Of a stretch of DNA of 44,125 bases, positions 4,711 through 42,255 are shown in pieces. The translations under genes were made by a program, and so were the position numbers. The stretch's first letter is position 1, and each line of letters starts with the position of its first letter. Source of the stretch: Methanobrevibacter olleyae (GTDB lineage: Archaea > Methanobacteriota > Methanobacteria > Methanobacteriales > Methanobacteriaceae); contig NZ_FOTL01000019.1 in NCBI RefSeq assembly GCF_900114585.1, positions 1 to 44,125 on the forward strand, written 5' to 3'. The notes under the pieces are model-generated. The model ran no database searches, was not told the origin of the DNA, and saw only the letters and a program-made list of their open reading frames with translations.

Positions 4711-4881
4711 TCTAATTATTATGATTTATGGCTAAATTAGATTGATTTAATTATTATAAAAATAAAAAATATATAATTCAAATTATAAAAAAAGAAATAA
4801 AAATAAAAAATACATAATCAAATTATAAAAAAAAGAAATAAAAATAAAAAATACATAATCAAATTATAAAAAAAGAAATTA
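4688..4881. repeat. Tandem repeats after comE (35 bp, then about 41 bp)
   Basis: GATTTATGGCTAAATTAGAT occurs at 4688 (inside the last codons of comE) and at 4723, a 35-bp tandem copy. About three imperfect copies of an A-rich 40-42 bp unit containing AAATACATAATCAAATTATA follow to about 4881. Confidence 0.85.
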
Positions 4882-4945
4882 AAAACCGACTGATAAAATA
4901 ATGAAAAAACCTAATCAACAAATAATAAAAAAAGAATAGTTAAAA

Positions 4946-14463: not shown

Positions 14464-14566
14464 AGTAATTCCCCATTAGATAAAGTTAATTTTTAATCCA
14501 TTAAATCAACTAGTTTTTTTACAAAACATCAACATATAATTATATCTTTTAAATAATTTAAATAAT

Positions 14567-14735
14567 TTATTATAATTTTCTTTTATTAAACATAATTCAA
14601 TATTATTAAATTCTAAATAAATTATTATAATTTTCTTTTATTAAGCAGAATATTTTAGATTATATCAATCAAATAAATTATTATAATTTTCTTTTATTAA
14701 GCAGAATATTTTAGATTATATCAATCAAATAATCT
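14567..14735. repeat. 56-bp tandem repeat upstream of the polyferredoxin gene
   Basis: Two near-exact 56-bp copies and one diverged copy contain TTATAATTTTCTTTTATTAA; two of them continue with GCAGAATATTTTAGATTATA. They fill the gap between the kinase stop and the polyferredoxin start (311 bp). No reading frame is seen there. Confidence 0.85.
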
Positions 14736-16740: not shown

Positions 16741-16915
16741 AAATATATTGAATAAAGCCTGAATTAATCTAAAAACTATATAAACTAATCTAAAAATTAA
16801 TATAAATTAATCTAGAAATTATATGAACTAATCTAAAAATTAATATAAATTAATCTAGAAATTATATGAACTAATCTAAAAATTAATATAAATTAATCTA
16901 AAAATAATATAAATA
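16741..16915. repeat. 43-bp tandem repeat between ftr and ehaR
   Basis: Units containing TAATCTAAAAATTAATATAA and then TAATCTAGAAATTATATGAA alternate with a 43-bp period for about four copies, filling the gap downstream of the EhaR-like gene. Confidence 0.85.
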
Positions 16916-18253: not shown

Positions 18254-19705
18254 TTATAAGAACTGCCAAATTGTAGAAACCTTAATTGCATTTACCGGAC
18301 AAATTCCCTCACAGTTTCTACAAGAAATACAATCATCATGATTTACAAGAACTTTCCCATCTTCAATTGATAGTGCATCAACTGGACAATTTTTAACACA
18401 TACCTCACATAATTGGCAAGCATGATGATTTACTTCTACAGTACCATTTCTTCTTCCTCTAAGATCTCTTTTAATAAAGAAAATCTCATGATTTCTATTT
18501 GTAAAGAACTCTTCTTTAAGCTTAATAGCTTCAAAATCACATACTTCAGCACATAAACCACAGTAGACACAGGAATTATCAGTATTAATTATAATTGGAT
18601 TAGGACCATCTAAACTAATAGAGTCAGTTGGACAAACATCTTTACATAAGCCACAAGCAATACAATTCTCATTTATCACTTCAATACCTAAACTAGGAGG
18701 GAAGAATTCTACAAGGTCTAGAACTTTAATAACATCTAAATCTTCTTTAAGCTGAGAATTTAAACGTTGGTTTAAGAATTCTGTAACATTTACTACAATA
18801 GATTTACAATTAGTACAAGTGAATATTTCAACATCTGAAAATTCCATCCCTCTTGGAACATCTCTAATGTCCATTGAGTTTTCATAATCAAAGTCATCAA
18901 AATGATAATCTTTAGAAATATCTTCAAGTAGTTTTACTAAAACATTATCAATATTAGTAAGACCTTTAGAGATATTATAAACATCCATATCTATAATTTC
19001 AGATGCAATTTCTAATGTTTTAATTTTATTAAATGATTCAAAGGCTTCTTCTCTTTCAACATAATCAATTGCATAAGTAGGACAAGCATGCATACATTCT
19101 TCACATCTTGCACAATAAGCAGGGTCAATGAATGGTAATTTATTAGTTTTACCAACGTTAATTGCTCCTTTAGAGGGACATATTCTTGTACAAGTCATAC
19201 AACCAATACATTGATCTTGGTCAATACAGAGAGTTTTACCTTCTTTAACAGTTTTAGGAAGAATTTCTCCATATTTAATAGCATCAGTAGGGCAATATCT
19301 AAAACAATATCCGCAGCGAATACATTTATCTTCATCAATTTCACTATGCACCTCCTCTCCACCAGAGGATGCTAAATGAATAGCTCCAGATTTACATGCA
19401 TCAACACATGCTCCACAAGCTCTACAAAGCTTTTTATTTATATTAGGAACATTTTCACGAATTGGATCGGATAAAGTCTTTTTAATATGAATAGCATCAT
19501 AAGGACATGCATTAGTACAGAGAACACAACCAAAACAATGTTCATCTAATTTAATAAATTTAGTATTAGAATCTTGATAAACTGCATCAATTGGACAAAC
19601 TTTCAGGCAAGGTTTATCTATACAATTAATACATTTTTCATCATCAATTTCATATTCAATATAAACATCACGTAATGGTCTTGGAATAGAGTCAACACTT
19701 ACCAT
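18254..19705 (-). CDS. ehaQ: Eha polyferredoxin, 10x[4Fe-4S]
   Basis: The protein has 483 residues. Ten four-Cys motifs can be counted. The first is a variant, CINCIDKPCLKVCP from residue 25; then CFGCVLCTNAC, CRACGACVDAC, CIRCGYCFRYC, CIGCMTCTRIC and CARCEECMHAC. After a Cys-poor stretch (about 210-330, with a lone CTNC) come CIACGLCKDVC, CVYCGLCAEVC, CQLCEVCVKNC and CISCRNCEGIC. This agrees with the 10-cluster polyferredoxin known for Eha. It should carry electrons between the hydrogenase module and ferredoxin-dependent partners. GAAGGAGG lies 9 nt before the ATG. Confidence 0.93.
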   Translation of the reverse strand: MVSVDSIPRPLRDVYIEYEIDDEKCINCIDKPCLKVCPIDAVYQDSNTKFIKLDEHCFGCVLCTNACPYDAIHIKKTLSDPIRENVPNINKKLCRACGACVDACKSGAIHLASSGGEEVHSEIDEDKCIRCGYCFRYCPTDAIKYGEILPKTVKEGKTLCIDQDQCIGCMTCTRICPSKGAINVGKTNKLPFIDPAYCARCEECMHACPTYAIDYVEREEAFESFNKIKTLEIASEIIDMDVYNISKGLTNIDNVLVKLLEDISKDYHFDDFDYENSMDIRDVPRGMEFSDVEIFTCTNCKSIVVNVTEFLNQRLNSQLKEDLDVIKVLDLVEFFPPSLGIEVINENCIACGLCKDVCPTDSISLDGPNPIIINTDNSCVYCGLCAEVCDFEAIKLKEEFFTNRNHEIFFIKRDLRGRRNGTVEVNHHACQLCEVCVKNCPVDALSIEDGKVLVNHDDCISCRNCEGICPVNAIKVSTIWQFL

Positions 19706-19706
19706 A

Positions 19707-19844
19707 TTAAATGCCTCCTTCTATTAATTGAAGAGTGATAAAACCTCTTTCCACTAAATGAGAACCAAACATATTAAGCTCTCTTCCCACTAAATGAGAA
19801 CCAAACATATTAAGCTCTCTTCCCACTAAATAAGAACCAAACAT
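19707..19844 (-). CDS. Possible 45-residue repeat peptide between ehaP and ehaQ
   Basis: The ATG lies one base after the ehaP stop (GCT TAA T ATG), and the stop TAA lies one base before the ehaQ ATG. The frame is three copies of a 36-bp unit (MFGSHLVGRELN, first copy with Tyr for His), the last diverging to ERGFITLQLIEGGI. AGGAGG in the end of ehaP is well placed as a ribosome-binding site, and the last codons contain the ehaQ site. It could be a real coupling peptide or only a tandem expansion of the junction that happens to stay open. Confidence 0.45.
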   Translation of the reverse strand: MFGSYLVGRELNMFGSHLVGRELNMFGSHLVERGFITLQLIEGGI

Positions 19845-19850
19845 ATTAAG
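19711..19850. repeat. 36-bp tandem repeat at the ehaP-ehaQ junction
   Basis: CACTAAATGAGAACCAAACA and its flanks recur three times at 36-bp spacing. The ehaP end and the ehaQ leader are themselves alike (CAATTA-AGAAAGGAGG and CAATTA-AGAAGGAGG, each ending in TTAATATG), so the segment looks like repeated copying of the gene junction. Confidence 0.85.
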
Positions 19851-20880
19851 CCCTCCTTTCTGCTAATTGAGAAGCTTTTACAGAAATGTGAATAACTTTC
19901 TCATTATTATCATTTGTATCTAAATTAAATTTAGCTAAGAAATATTTTATAACTCCAAATGGACAGGTTTGATAACAAATACTGCATCTTAAACATTTTT
20001 CTTTATCTCTTACAATAGTATCCTTATCATAATCAAAGGATATAGCTCCAGTTGGACAATCTGGAATACACATTTGACATTTTTTACAGCTGTCTTCATC
20101 CCAAGTGATAATTCTAATTTTTAATCTATTGATAGCATCTTCTAAAACTTCATTAACTACTTCTTCATCATTTAAAATAGTTAAAGACTTATCAAAGATA
20201 GGTTTAAATTCTAACTCATCTAAAAAGAGCTTATCAGTACCTAGTTTAATCAATTCATCTTGTTTAGATCCAATATATTCTTCTAAGGTTTTAACTACAA
20301 AATTAATAATTTTCTTTTGTTCTTCAAGATTATTAACAAATACTCCTTTCATAGCTCCTTTAACAGGGCATGCGTCTAGACATTTTCCACAAGATATACA
20401 TTTAGATTGATTTACAACAACCTTATCTCCAATTTCCTCAATAGCACCAACTTCACAAGCATCCATACACTTATGACATCTAATACACAAATAATCATCT
20501 ACAATGTATTTTCTTTTAGAAGGAATAATATTAAATTCTTCATGAATAAAATGATTTTCCCCACATTCTAATGTTTTTGGAGTGGAAGGGCAAACTTCAG
20601 CACAGAAACCACATCTAATACAAGCTGCTTTATTAATAACCGGATAGATTAAGCCGATAGATTCTTCATTATCTGAATCTCTAATTAATTTGATTGCATT
20701 TGGAGATGGACAAGAAGCAGTACAAGAGCCACAACCAATACAATATTCCTTAATCACTTTAGGAAAATCTCTAAACCTGTCTGGTTTTTGTACTAAGTCT
20801 TCTTTTGATTTTGCATCGAAAAAACCATCTATCCAAGCTTTTCTTGCAAATTCATAAATATACCATATAATTGAAGACAT
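19846..20880 (-). CDS. ehaP: Eha polyferredoxin, 6x[4Fe-4S]
   Basis: The protein has 344 residues. There are six CxxCxxCxxxC motifs: CIGCGSCTASC (from residue 47), CIRCGFCAEVC, CIRCHKCMDAC, CISCGKCLDAC, then after a Cys-free helical stretch (about 180-265) CKKCQMCIPDC and CLRCSICYQTC. This fits the 6-cluster Eha polyferredoxin. It is expected at the cytoplasmic face as part of the electron path to the [NiFe] site in EhaO. GGAGGTG, 8 nt before the ATG, is the strongest ribosome-binding site in the operon. Confidence 0.93.
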   Translation of the reverse strand: MSSIIWYIYEFARKAWIDGFFDAKSKEDLVQKPDRFRDFPKVIKEYCIGCGSCTASCPSPNAIKLIRDSDNEESIGLIYPVINKAACIRCGFCAEVCPSTPKTLECGENHFIHEEFNIIPSKRKYIVDDYLCIRCHKCMDACEVGAIEEIGDKVVVNQSKCISCGKCLDACPVKGAMKGVFVNNLEEQKKIINFVVKTLEEYIGSKQDELIKLGTDKLFLDELEFKPIFDKSLTILNDEEVVNEVLEDAINRLKIRIITWDEDSCKKCQMCIPDCPTGAISFDYDKDTIVRDKEKCLRCSICYQTCPFGVIKYFLAKFNLDTNDNNEKVIHISVKASQLAERRA

Positions 20881-20940
20881 TTTTATTTCACCTCCTCAAG
20901 AGGAAAAGAGAAAATAGAATAAAAAGAATTTAAAAAAACT

Positions 20941-22077
20941 TTATTCATTTAATTTCACCTCAAAGAAGTCTTTTATAGCATATTTACCAGTATCAATATC
21001 TGTTATAGCTACTCTTTCAGTACAAGCAATACAAGGATCTGAAGATGCATATGTTGAAACTGCATCAGAAACCGTAGCTACATCTTTAAGCATATATCTT
21101 GCACAAGAATCAATATTCATAATACTTGGAGTTCTAATAGAAATACGCTTGATTAAATCCCCGTTAGTTTCTACCATATAAGTTACTTCTCCACGTGGAG
21201 CTTCATTTCTCCATTCACCATAACCAGAAGCAATCTCTACAGGAATTCTAATATCCCCTTTAGGCATATTGTCAATAGCTTGTTTAATTAAATCAATAGA
21301 TTGTTCAACTTCATAAAGCCTATTTAAAGTACGGGCATAATTATCTCCTTCTTTTCTCCAAATAGGTTTAAAGTCAAATCCATCTTGATAAGTGTAATGA
21401 TCTTCTCTTAAATCATGTTTAATACCAGAAGCTCTTCCAATAGGTCCAACTGCATGACCTTTAATAGCTTCCTCTTTAGTCATTACTCCAACACCTTTTG
21501 CCCTTAAAGCAACGATAGGTGCTTCTTCAAATAGTGCAATATGCCTATCGAATCCATCCTCAATCTTCTTTAAGTTTGCAAGTATTTCATCAAAATGTCT
21601 TTCGTTTGCATCCATACGGACACCGCCAACAACATTCCAACCTAAATTAACCCTATTACCAGTTAATAATTCAAGGGAATCCATTGCATATTCTCTTAAA
21701 GCTAAAACATGCATAAATAAGGTTTCATGATCAAGAGTTTTAAAGAATGTTGAATTTGCAAGTAAGTGAGATTGAATTCTATCTAATTCATTTGTAATAA
21801 CTCTTAAATATTGTGCTCTAAGTGGAGCACGAACTCCAGAAATTATTTCCAAAGTCTCAGCAAATGATTGTGTATGCTCATATGAACAAATACCACATAC
21901 TCTTTCAGCTAAGTAAATACATTTCTGCCAAGTTTTACCTTCCATAATCTTTTCAATACCTCTATGAACATAACCATAATCAATTTCGGCTTTAATAACC
22001 TTTTCACCTTGAGTTTGAAGTTTAAGTCTTAAAGGTTCCTTTAAACCTGGATGAATTGGGCCTATTGGTAATATCAT
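20941..22077 (-). CDS. ehaO: Eha [NiFe]-hydrogenase large subunit
   Basis: The 378-residue protein holds the Ni-Fe centre. The two ligand motifs are [12 protein letters not shown] (Cys61, Cys64) and DPCIACTER (Cys349, Cys352). The second motif is followed by Arg, not the His cleaved by maturation proteases, and the protein ends 26 residues later, so no classical C-terminal processing is expected, as in Ech-type enzymes. Similarity to NuoD-like complex I subunits is typical of the group. It binds EhaN and reacts with H2. Confidence 0.95.
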
Positions 22078-22124
22078 AATATCGTAACTCCTTATTTACT
22101 TATCTGATAAAATTTATAATTTTA

Positions 22125-22305
22125 ATAAACTTAACAATTTTAGAAATACTAATAATTTTAAAAATATTAATAATTTCAAGGATATTAATAATTTTAAAAA
22201 TATTAATAATTTTAATAAATTAATAATTTTAAAAATATTAATAATTTTAATAAATTAATAATTTTAAAAATATTAATAAATTTTAATAATACTAATAATA
22301 TTAAT
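22125..22305. repeat. Short tandem repeats between ehaN and ehaO
   Basis: An 18-34 bp unit of the form AATAATTTTAAAAATATT is repeated many times and fills most of the 261-bp gap. No frame is seen. Confidence 0.75.
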
Positions 22306-22338
22306 AATCTATGTTTTAATTCAATATATTACTTATAA

Positions 22339-22800
22339 CTAATCTTTTCTACTATCTTGAGCTCTTCCTTTAGCTGCAAGTGCTCCAGGAGCAACAGTTA
22401 AAACTGCTTCTAAAATTTCACTTGGTCTTGGAGGGCAACCTGGAATAGCTGCATCTACTGGAATAAAGTCAGAAACTGGAGCAAGAACTCTTCCTCCTTC
22501 TTGTGCAAATACATCTCCAGATTGTGGACAGTTTCCAACAGTTACAACAATTTTAGGTTCAGGAGTTTTCGCATAAATCCTTCTTAAATTCTCTCTCCAT
22601 TGTTCTGTAACTGCACCAGTTACTAAAAGAACATCAGCTTCACGGGGATTATTGTGAACATAAATCCCATACTGTTCAAGATCGTATCTTGGAGAAAGAA
22701 GAGCGACTAATTCCACGTCACAGCCATTGCATCCTCCACAATTTACAATACAAACATGAATTGAACTTTTTCTCACAATATCTTTAAGTCTTTTAAGCAT
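22339..22800 (-). CDS. ehaN: Eha [NiFe]-hydrogenase small subunit
   Basis: The 153-residue protein is NuoB-like. It carries the Cys ligands of the proximal [4Fe-4S] cluster: [11 protein letters not shown] (Cys21, 24, 27), [10 protein letters not shown] near residue 95 and IPGCPPRP near residue 120. It passes electrons between the Ni-Fe site in EhaO and the polyferredoxins. Length matches group 4 small subunits. The ribosome-binding site is GGT, 7 nt before the ATG. The last 15 residues are hydrophilic and probably disordered. Confidence 0.95.
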
Positions 22801-23654: not shown

Positions 23655-23800
23655 CTTCTGATTTTTAACTATAAATTCTAATTAACAATTTTGAAATAAA
23701 TATAAAACTTTAACTCTAAATTCTAATTAACAATTTTGAAATAAATATAAAACTTTAACTCTAAATTCTAATTAACAATTTTGAAATAAATATAAAACTT
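23655..23800. repeat. 45-bp tandem repeat between ehaK and ehaL
   Basis: Three copies of a 45-bp unit with TAAATTCTAATTAACAATTT followed by TGAAATAAATATAAAACTTT begin right at the ehaK stop codon, with the first junction overlapping it. Confidence 0.9.
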
Positions 23801-23804
23801 TAAC

Positions 23805-24062
23805 TTAAATTGCTTTATATAAACAAATAAATGCTATACAAATGATTAAAAATGTAATAATGAAAGCTAATCTTTCTAAATTCTCAGCTAAATGAGCTGA
23901 TTTTTCATCCTTTTGCATCAATATAAATGAAACAAAGATAATTCCAATTATAGCTAAAGGAAGGGCTAAAATACTTTGGAAGTAAGTAGCTAAAGCTGCC
24001 ACTATAAATATTCCTAAAGCTACTAATGAAGTTAATACTCTCATTCCTTTTTCATTACTCAT
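23805..24062 (-). CDS. ehaK: Eha membrane subunit K
   Basis: The 85-residue protein has three hydrophobic segments (about 8-26, 30-47 and 63-84). It is assigned by order and size after ehaJ. GAAGG lies upstream of the ATG. It has no catalytic motif and is a small accessory part of the membrane arm. Confidence 0.8.
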   Translation of the reverse strand: MSNEKGMRVLTSLVALGIFIVAALATYFQSILALPLAIIGIIFVSFILMQKDEKSAHLAENLERLAFIITFLIICIAFICLYKAI

Positions 24063-24145: not shown

Positions 24146-25006
24146 CTAAATAATAATCATAATAATTGAACCAAGTGTACAAATAACTGCAATTGATATT
24201 TGGGCCATTACAGAATGGTTTGGATTTAACATAGGAGTTGTAGCATTAATAAATCCAGTTATAATACAAATTACAATCATTCCAATAAGATATCCAAGTA
24301 CTGAAATTGGTCCAAAGAATACAGTTAAGAATATCCATAATAAGATATACCAAGCAATTGACTCTGAAAACATTATGTATCCTTTAAGTAAACCAAAATG
24401 CTCAGTTTCAAATCCAGATATAATTTCTTTTCCTTTTGTAATTCCAAAAGGAGAATATGGGGATTTTGTAACTATTAATGTAAAGAACATAATTGCTGCA
24501 AGAGGTAATTTAAATATTAAAGGCCCGTTTGCTGCTTGATAATCTATAATTCCACTGATATCCATAGTTCCAGTTAAAATAAAGATTATAGCAATTATAG
24601 CAAATAATGGTAATTCTCCTGCTGCTGAGAATACAGCTCTTACACAACTTACTTTACCATATGGAGAACCTGAAGAAGATCCTGCATTATGTTCTACAAT
24701 CTTATGGATTGCATAAATACCAAATAATATCATTAAAGAACCTTTGGTAACTGGACCTACAATAACTCCAGTAACCCAGATCCCTGCTAAAATAACTGTA
24801 ATACCTACATAAAAGGGCATTGCAGCTGTTTTTGGAAATGAAGTTTCTTTAAAGAAAAATTTCAAAGAATGCAACAAATATTGTATAATAGGAGGTCCAG
24901 GTCTTAATTGAACTCTCGCCATAACTTTTCTATGGAAACCTAATAAAAGACTACCTGCAAGGAAGGCTATAATTACGTTGATTAAAATTTGAGCCATTAA
25001 ATTCAT
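24146..25006 (-). CDS. ehaJ: Eha membrane subunit J (NuoH/EchB-like)
   Basis: The protein has 286 residues and about eight membrane helices. [14 protein letters not shown] near residue 28 is the conserved loop of the NuoH/EchB/HycD family, which contacts the hydrogenase module and helps couple electron transfer to ion movement. The ATG at 25006 is chosen because GAAGG is 6 nt upstream; a TTG 12 nt earlier lies on that site. It is one of the two membrane subunits conserved across energy-converting hydrogenases. Confidence 0.93.
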
Positions 25007-25077
25007 AATATCCTTCAAAGAGATTTATAATTAGTTTAAATTAGAGAATAATTGTAAAAATTTAAATTATTATCTAA

Positions 25078-26134: not shown

Positions 26135-26163
26135 TTAACAGTCTCCTTTTCTAATTTCAATAA

Positions 26164-26841
26164 TCATTTTCTACCGTATTCTTCTCTCATTAAGATTCCG
26201 ATTAATCCAATCTTAGAAGCTACTTTTAAGAGTAAACCAAGAGCTGCTAAGAATAAACTTAATAACCAATATTGCGGTAATAGGAAGAAGGATATAAAAC
26301 CAACTATCCATAAACACCAAGAGATACCAGAAATTGCTCCTACACCATCAAGAACAACAATTGGTAAACCTCTAACTTTTCTACTTAATACATAAATTAC
26401 AATACCTCCACCAGCTACTGCACCACCAGTAAAACCAGATAAGAATACACCATAAGCAATTAATATTAATGCAATGAAATTAGGAGAGCTTGTCATAATT
26501 TCCATATTGATATCTAAAGGCATTGGTGTAAATGAGGTATCTTTGTCAGCTTTTCTCATTTCACGAGATATTAAAATCTCAGATATAGCCATGATCTCTG
26601 CTAATTCTACTACTAAACCTGGAAGAATTAAAGCTTCAGATAAATCAGTTCCAACAGCAGCTACAACTATAAGCATAGCTAAACCTACAATATCAGTTAA
26701 GATAAGAATTTGAATATCTCTTTTCTCTATTGAAATTCCAATTAAGCCAATGAAAGCTACAATTAAACCACCATATAAAGCTGTGGTATACATTGAACTA
26801 TAGAAAGCAGAAACAAATTGAGGAATTACACTTACTACCAT
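26164..26841 (-). CDS. ehaG: Eha membrane subunit G
   Basis: The 225-residue protein has six or seven membrane helices. A charged loop around residues 93-113 includes [20 protein letters not shown]. The start at 26841 is preferred because AGGTG is 7 nt upstream; the TTG 3 nt earlier is less well spaced. It is assigned by order and size. It is probably part of the ion-translocating arm. Confidence 0.85.
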
Positions 26842-26916
26842 CAATATACACCTCTATTAAAAGTGATTTTATTTATAGTACTAATCATAAAATCATTTAA
26901 ATTACTAATCATAAAA

Positions 26917-27516
26917 TCACCTAAACTCCTTTTTAGCTTGTTTTTGGCGAGCTTGACGATTGCTTTCTTCAACTTCACTAGCTATTCTATCAGAACTTGC
27001 AATAGCACTTTTTACATCCTCTTTAATATCCTTTTTAGCTTTTTTTCTATCCATAGTAAAGTTAATAGCTAACCATGATGCAATAATAAATGCCATCATA
27101 AGAATAGAAGATTCTAAGATAGTATCAAAACCTCTTGTATAGTAAAGGATTTCATCTATTACTCCTCCAGGAGATGAACATATACTTGTTCCAAAGTATG
27201 GAGAAATATCCTTTAGCATTTCAGCTATTGGAGTCATGTATGAATTAATCCAACCTAGATTTCTAGAATTTTCAGGATATTGGGCTTCTGTAAGACCAGG
27301 ACTTTCTAAAATCTCACCACCTCTATCATATGGAGCAATAGCAAGTCCTGCATCCATTTGACTTTGAGGAGCTGGACGAGTATAAATTTGGTTGGTATTT
27401 AACTCTACAGGAATCAAAAATCCAGCAATCAATAGTAAACCTAAAATTAGAGCAAATAATCTAGGAATATTCTTTGGATTTGCTAATTTATTCCATATTT
27501 TTGCTATTTTAGGCAT
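26917..27516 (-). CDS. ehaF: Eha membrane subunit F
   Basis: The 199-residue protein has an N-terminal helix (about 18-36), a hydrophilic stretch of about 100 residues probably outside the membrane, a second helix (about 138-155) and a highly charged Lys/Glu-rich C-terminal tail of about 40 residues, perhaps coiled coil. It is assigned by order between ehaE and ehaG. GGAGG precedes the ATG. The function is unknown. Confidence 0.83.
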   Translation of the reverse strand: MPKIAKIWNKLANPKNIPRLFALILGLLLIAGFLIPVELNTNQIYTRPAPQSQMDAGLAIAPYDRGGEILESPGLTEAQYPENSRNLGWINSYMTPIAEMLKDISPYFGTSICSSPGGVIDEILYYTRGFDTILESSILMMAFIIASWLAINFTMDRKKAKKDIKEDVKSAIASSDRIASEVEESNRQARQKQAKKEFR

Positions 27517-27558
27517 TTAGAAAACCTCCAGCATTAATTTTAAATAAATTGATAAACA

Positions 27559-27819
27559 TTATACATCAGCTCCAATCTCTTCTAAACGAGCAATAGCTCT
27601 AAATAAGATTAAAGTTACAATGATAGTAGTTGCAATTAATGTCAAAAGAGCTAATGTAGAATTATAAGTAAGCAAAATTAATGAAACTCCTACAGATGCT
27701 ACTTCTGTATTTATTGTTCTTATAACAGGGTCTTTTACACCAGGACCCCAAACAGTAGCAATGCTTCCAAAAATAGCTAATGCTAAACCTACATAAACCC
27801 AAAGTGCAAGATTAAACAT
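27559..27819 (-). CDS. ehaE: Eha membrane subunit E
   Basis: The 86-residue protein has three helices (about 5-22, 43-58 and 58-76). Its ATG overlaps the ehaD stop in TAATG, so translation is probably coupled. GGTGG, within the end of ehaD, is the ribosome-binding site. It is assigned by order and size. Confidence 0.83.
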
Positions 27820-42002: not shown

Positions 42003-42255
42003 TTCTTTTTTTAAATTTATTTTATTTTAAAAAACTATTTTTTATCTAAAATTTATAAATTTAAAAAACTATTTTCCTATCTAAAATTTATAAATTTAAA
42101 AAACTTTTTTTTAAATAAAATCCTAAACTGTTAGTGATATTACGAATAAATAAAAATAATTAAAAAAAATAGTAAAAAATAAAGTATTAAAATATAAAAA
42201 TAATTAAAAAAAATAGTAAAAAATAAAGTATTAAAATATAAAAATAATTAAAATT
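42003..42255. repeat. Tandem repeats between convergent genes
   Basis: Two sets are seen: TCTAAAATTTATAAATTTAA twice near 42044-42110, and TAATTAAAAAAAATAGTAAA units with a 45-bp period from about 42155 to 42255, next to the trxB stop. Confidence 0.75.

Follow-up and report, generated by a model that had tools for sequence, protein, structure and literature searches.

In the termination-reinitiation (TeRe) pairs of archaea and bacteria (PMC6728339, PMC10666635), the Shine-Dalgarno (SD) motif of the downstream gene lies within the upstream one, stop and start codons are only a few nucleotides apart, and the two genes encode subunits of one complex. Distance matters greatly: in Haloferax volcanii, reinitiation at one gene pair was down by 60% at 13 nt and gone at 22 nt, and two other pairs showed next to none at 23 nt (PMC10666635). 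A second class of related elements, the mycobacterial interspersed repetitive units (MIRUs), are described in a later paper as mobile and interspersed, with insertion at start codons and a spacing of −4 nt (PMC12548453, citing Supply et al. 1997).

The junction between ehaP and ehaQ of Methanobrevibacter olleyae shares the three features of TeRe pairs and differs from them in one respect: between the two genes stands a third, a mini-cistron that is not conserved, and each of its two ends keeps within the distance rule. We propose, with a probability of about 0.7, that this ORF is a relay mini-cistron—i.e. that it would keep ehaP and ehaQ coupled by termination-reinitiation across an insert, its peptide being expendable. 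Positions below refer to the window, the stretch of 44,125 nucleotides that we analyzed.

Anatomy of the ehaP–ehaQ junction

The minus strand from 29384 down to 18254 carries the eha genes, which correspond, by gene order and NCBIfam matches, to ehaA to ehaQ (Table 1); the single-letter names are those we take to apply from gene order and general knowledge. A preliminary description of the locus reported an ORF of 45 residues between ehaP and ehaQ, with AGGAGG upstream and one-base spacing at either end, and the coordinates bear this out: the frame translates to MFGSYLVGRELNMFGSHLVGRELNMFGSHLVERGFITLQLIEGGI (45 aa, then a stop), and 1 nt separates it from the ehaP stop (19848-19846) on one side and from the ehaQ ATG (19705-19703) on the other. 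At the other candidate relays, the ends lie between −8 and +5 nt from the neighboring codons. AGGAGG occurs twice, each time inside the upstream frame; pairing with the 16S tail is strong at the two outer starts (duplex energies near −10 kcal/mol, Table 1), whereas the two ATGs in between have weak SDs (−4.2 kcal/mol), which is consistent with translation that would begin at the first ATG and read on past the others. Of the three frames of the spacer, one is free of internal stops; the other two hold 2 and 5.

Table 1. Positions of the genes, mini-ORFs, SD motifs and repeat discussed in the text
Feature	Position	Strand	Basis or remark
ehaQ-like polyferredoxin gene	18254..19705	minus	NCBIfam
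Candidate relay mini-ORF, ehaP–ehaQ	19707..19844	minus	45 codons + stop; +1/+1 nt to neighbors
AGGAGG, SD of ehaQ, within mini-ORF end	19714..19719	minus	duplex energy −10.0 kcal/mol
36-bp in-frame tandem repeat, best read as derived by duplication and divergence from the SD-stop-start junction at the 3′ end of ehaP	19745..19855	minus	TRF + alignment
ehaP-like polyferredoxin gene	19846..20880	minus	NCBIfam; last codons hold the SD of the mini-ORF
AGGAGG, SD of mini-ORF, within ehaP end	19852..19857	minus	duplex energy −10.5 kcal/mol
Candidate relay mini-ORF, ehaO–ehaP	20883..20948	minus	−8/+2 nt; similar mini-ORF in G002
NuoD-like gene	20941-22077	minus	NCBIfam
NuoB-like gene	22339-22800	minus	NCBIfam
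NuoH-like gene	24146-25018	minus	NCBIfam
Candidate relay mini-ORF, ehaF–ehaG	26841..26912	minus	+4/−1 nt; own 24-bp in-frame repeat
Candidate relay mini-ORF, ehaE–ehaF	27509..27559	minus	−1/−8 nt; each of the 13 species with data has a counterpart

The spacer carries a tandem repeat (TRF: period 36 bp, 3.1 copies, 96% match, score 201), and the array extends into the final codons of ehaP. In an alignment, the last codons of ehaP (GCTTCTCAATTAGCAGAAAGGAGGGCTTAATATG) recur in diverged form, less one base, as the repeat unit GGTTCTCATTTAGTGGGAAGAGAGCTTAATATG, so that the copied TAA falls out of frame; the final stretch, CTTCAATTAATAGAAGGAGGCATTTAATATG, is a further diverged copy. This alignment makes a tandem duplication of the SD-stop-start junction that closes ehaP the best reading of the unit. 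We rejected a mobile or interspersed repeat because the repeat is single-copy: a whole-genome DNA search matched only its own locus, apart from a 27-nt match to sequence within ehaP rather than to the repeat.

It had also been claimed that the 36-bp period keeps the frame where most other intergenic repeats do not. The first half of this stands, while the second is weak, as several other arrays of the window have periods divisible by three (18, 24, 27/48, 45, 48 and 57; TRF). Several such arrays come without an ORF of this kind, and we did not accept divisibility by three as an argument on its own; the telling feature is a frame open from end to end. Short tandem arrays, mostly of 2–4 copies with AT-rich units of ~18–57 nt, are found in many intergenic regions of the window (examples at 4756-4885, 14560-14732, 16762-16913, 22107-22308, 23664-23811 and 42150-42253), and an 84-bp tandem repeat at the window edge (1-277) probably belongs to a large repetitive gene that is truncated where the contig stops.

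The proposed relay could have arisen as follows: ehaP and ehaQ would ancestrally have been coupled by termination-reinitiation, with an SD in the last ehaP codons, a stop, and an ATG 1 nt on; tandem duplication of this SD-stop-start junction would have displaced ehaQ; and the insert would have been kept because the copied ATG opened a frame whose stop once more adjoins the ehaQ ATG. A ribosome leaving ehaP would then face a hop of +1 nt, a ride of 45 codons and another hop of +1 nt, as against a single gap of 140 nt. Later expansions by 36 bp would have preserved the frame, and the loss of 1 nt per unit would have merged chained mini-ORFs into one; the peptide of the relay itself is probably irrelevant. 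By the distance rule of H. volcanii, an insert of 37–140 nt would uncouple ehaQ, whereas a relay at +1/+1 would not.

Inserts at tight junctions across the genus

We compared unit number and frame in 18 congeners (19 species of the genus with that of the window), looking for copy changes that break the frame, and found none. The gap between ehaP and ehaQ is 1–2 nt in 12 of the 19 species. Inserts of 37–140 nt, differing in sequence and length, separate the two genes in the other seven, the species of the window among them, and every one of these (7/7) is a single flush ORF that starts 1 nt past the ehaP stop and ends 0–1 nt before the ehaQ ATG. Apart from that of the window, the encoded peptides are MFIGSQIIEEGI, MFIGSQLVGGA, MVLFYSQLWGH (in two close species), MLFLSNYLLRRA and MAFLFNSYLRELKMAFLFNSYLLRRA, each followed by a stop; MAFLFNSYLRELKMAFLFNSYLLRRA represents a second repeat at this junction, expanded separately from that of the window. 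On a tree of the EhaP and EhaQ proteins, the insert-bearing species are spread over five lineages. MF(I)GSxx is common to three of the peptides, and these three inserts may go back to a single event with losses; we therefore count the gains at this junction as about three independent ones.

The pattern recurs at other junctions that are tight in the genus. Between ehaO and ehaP (median gap 1), inserts are present in four species and all are flush (4/4): the insert of G002 is MDKSFLENHYSFYFNLPLEEVK, which that of the window resembles, and the GTG-started inserts MSVIKIAKDFFEVK (followed by a stop) and MSVIIIAKDFFEVR (two close species) nearly repeat the ehaO C-terminus KDFFEVK. In the window, the start of this mini-ORF overlaps the end of ehaO by 8 nt, and ehaO ends three codons later than in relatives. 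Both inserts between ehaF and ehaG (median gap 4) are flush, and the Ehb operon repeats the picture, with 4/4 flush inserts at tight junctions against 1/124 at loose ones. Over the genus, leaving ehaE–ehaF aside, the totals are 17/17 at tight junctions and 8/416 at loose junctions. The ribosome coupling from ehaP to ehaQ that had been suggested in the preliminary description is, on comparative grounds, well supported by the uniformly flush inserts and by this recurrence.

At ehaE–ehaF, a flush ORF of 11–31 codons is found in 13 of the 13 species with data, with the frame kept and the sequence not: in the main group, the distances from its ATG to the SD are 29, 35, 41, 47, 50, 53 and 80 nt, every one of them 2 mod 3, while the sister subclade has 25 and 46 nt, both 1 mod 3; stops are nearly always present in the other two frames of these spacers. 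A flush 10-codon ORF between ehaG and ehaH (26135-26167, minus strand) is confined to the species of the window; relatives have spacers of ~100 nt at this position, with no flush ORF.

Chance, alternative explanations and scope

How often would such ORFs arise without selection? Shuffled spacers give 0.78 flush ORFs expected among the 13 tight eha inserts and 0.32 among the 4 tight Ehb inserts. Random tandem duplication of the real junction is a fairer null model, and yields a flush ORF in 35% (ehaP–ehaQ), 37% (ehaO–ehaP) and 50% (ehaF–ehaG) of cases. Given these shares, ehaP–ehaQ alone is weak evidence (p ~0.04, i.e. 0.35 cubed, for perhaps 3 independent gains) and the case rests on all junctions jointly: their product is ~8e-5 over ~10 assumed gains, with each Ehb event assigned an assumed 0.4. 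The number of gains is our estimate, and the species are not independent of one another. The constancy of the ehaE–ehaF frame adds a factor of ~5e-4.

It is against this null that a neutral origin has to be judged, in which slippage copies the junction, a flush ORF results by chance, and ehaQ relies on its own SD for translation, irrespective of events upstream. The repeat unit is after all a copy of the junction and carries its own start and stop, a strong SD precedes ehaQ, intergenic tandem arrays are common in the window, and spacers that are not ORFs are tolerated outside the genus. Moreover, every downstream gene retains a good SD and could start independently, which counts against a relay. 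We nevertheless regard the neutral account as unlikely: duplication alone predicts 35–50% flush inserts where all those at tight junctions within the genus are flush, and the ehaE–ehaF frame was held over nine ATG-to-SD distances. The relay reading, for its part, accounts for the flush ends, the kept outer SDs, the weak inner SDs, the free sequence and length of the inserts, and their restriction to tight junctions.

The preliminary description further suggested that the ORF might tune the ratio of the two polyferredoxins; the relay would then lower or set EhaQ relative to EhaP, with repeat number as the dial and ribosomes lost at each reinitiation. Reinitiation falls short of 100% in reporter work on other organisms, and repeat number does vary among species. 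However, extra copies add no reinitiation step, as the internal starts no longer have their SDs and now belong to a single frame, and the sequence of the insert is not conserved. Most relatives couple ehaP and ehaQ directly over 1–2 nt, and the comparison thus suggests that coupling as such is preserved rather than a special polyferredoxin ratio; tuning may occur but is not what the comparison indicates, and we consider it quite improbable. Still less can be said for a functional small protein of 11–45 residues, such as a small Eha subunit. An ORF with a strong SD within an operon would suit one, and small proteins acting on methanogen complexes are known (PMC12774963, PMC13370731); yet the peptide varies among relatives in sequence, length and presence, being absent from this junction in 12 of 19 species, and a Pfam search found no family above its cut-off. 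A zf-RNPHF match (E 0.0038) was set aside, as it is below the family cut-off and located in the repeat. An equally remote candidate is an RNA structure or protein-binding site formed by the repeat, with the ORF incidental: the spacer of the window folds better than its shuffles (z ~−3.4), but tandem repeats tend to self-fold, most candidate relays of relatives and of other junctions are without such an excess, and an Rfam search gave no match.

The pattern has boundaries. Outside the genus, none of nine long ehaP–ehaQ spacers is flush, and of 20 inserts at junctions tight in genus g9 only 3 are, with three genomes from two other genera supplying most of the 20. We thus rejected a universal rule in the family; the non-flush inserts suggest that coupling can be lost and is dispensable over longer times. 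Long tandem arrays with units such as TTGTATTGTTTATGTTTAGTTGTAATAATGATTAATAG and TAGCTAA lie in the ehaP–ehaQ spacer of L084 and L091 (genus g7), and their non-flush state suggests that coupling was lost at that junction. Short flush ORFs (MFIWRCLL and MIFNFMGAHL, each followed by a stop) occur at ehaE–ehaF in L346 and L347 (genus g6), possibly as independent relays at the same junction, and L347 has a further flush ORF, MIACNLLNLLIRIGDY plus stop, at a junction near the operon start.

Within the genus, junctions with gaps of 11–17 nt carry candidate relays, once enlarged, in 1 of 4 cases in Ehb and in 0 of 1 in the mtr region; the tight junctions of mtr and atp hold no inserts. In ~400-kb samples of two genomes, no excess of flush ORFs was found outside eha: G000 has 4 against 1.56 expected, three of them in eha, and G002 has 2 against 1.3, one of them in eha. 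These near-chance levels led us to reject genome-wide generality. What we put forward, tentatively and at somewhat less than even odds, is that relay mini-cistrons form a general class of genes in this Methanobrevibacter lineage: they would arise repeatedly wherever coupling is required, by junction duplication or other insertion, and would be selected for frame and end positions only and not for sequence, so that spacers could lengthen or shorten while the subunits of membrane hydrogenases stayed coupled.

Relation to known coupled systems

If this interpretation is right, the genus offers a natural test of the short-distance coupling rule, in which inserts at coupled junctions persist only as frame-perfect relays. 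The small ORFs concerned would make up a class with selected frame and unselected peptide, which would mislead small-protein annotation, and, for the membrane hydrogenases Eha and Ehb of these rumen methanogens, they would provide a marker, readable from the genome, of the places at which coupling is important.

Literature searches on minicistrons, and on tandem duplication combined with coupling, returned nothing. Short upstream ORFs and bicistronic designs (PMC12548453) are alike in that a short ORF serves solely to deliver the ribosome to the next start; the proposed relay differs in that it is natural, separates two genes instead of standing at the transcript's 5′ end, and recurs at several junctions within one operon. 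The likeness to MIRUs, as these are described (PMC12548453), is that repeat units at a junction carry a short ORF coupled to the neighboring gene, the insert barely harms expression, and the ORF abuts or overlaps the flanking stop and start, at +1/+1 here as compared with −4 in MIRUs. However, the insert of the window occupies a single site in its genome by whole-genome DNA search, is apparently a local copy of the junction, and belongs to an archaeal host; and in Methanobrevibacter different junctions hold unrelated sequences. The proposed relay would work like a MIRU and yet is not one: it is single-copy and apparently made from the junction itself.
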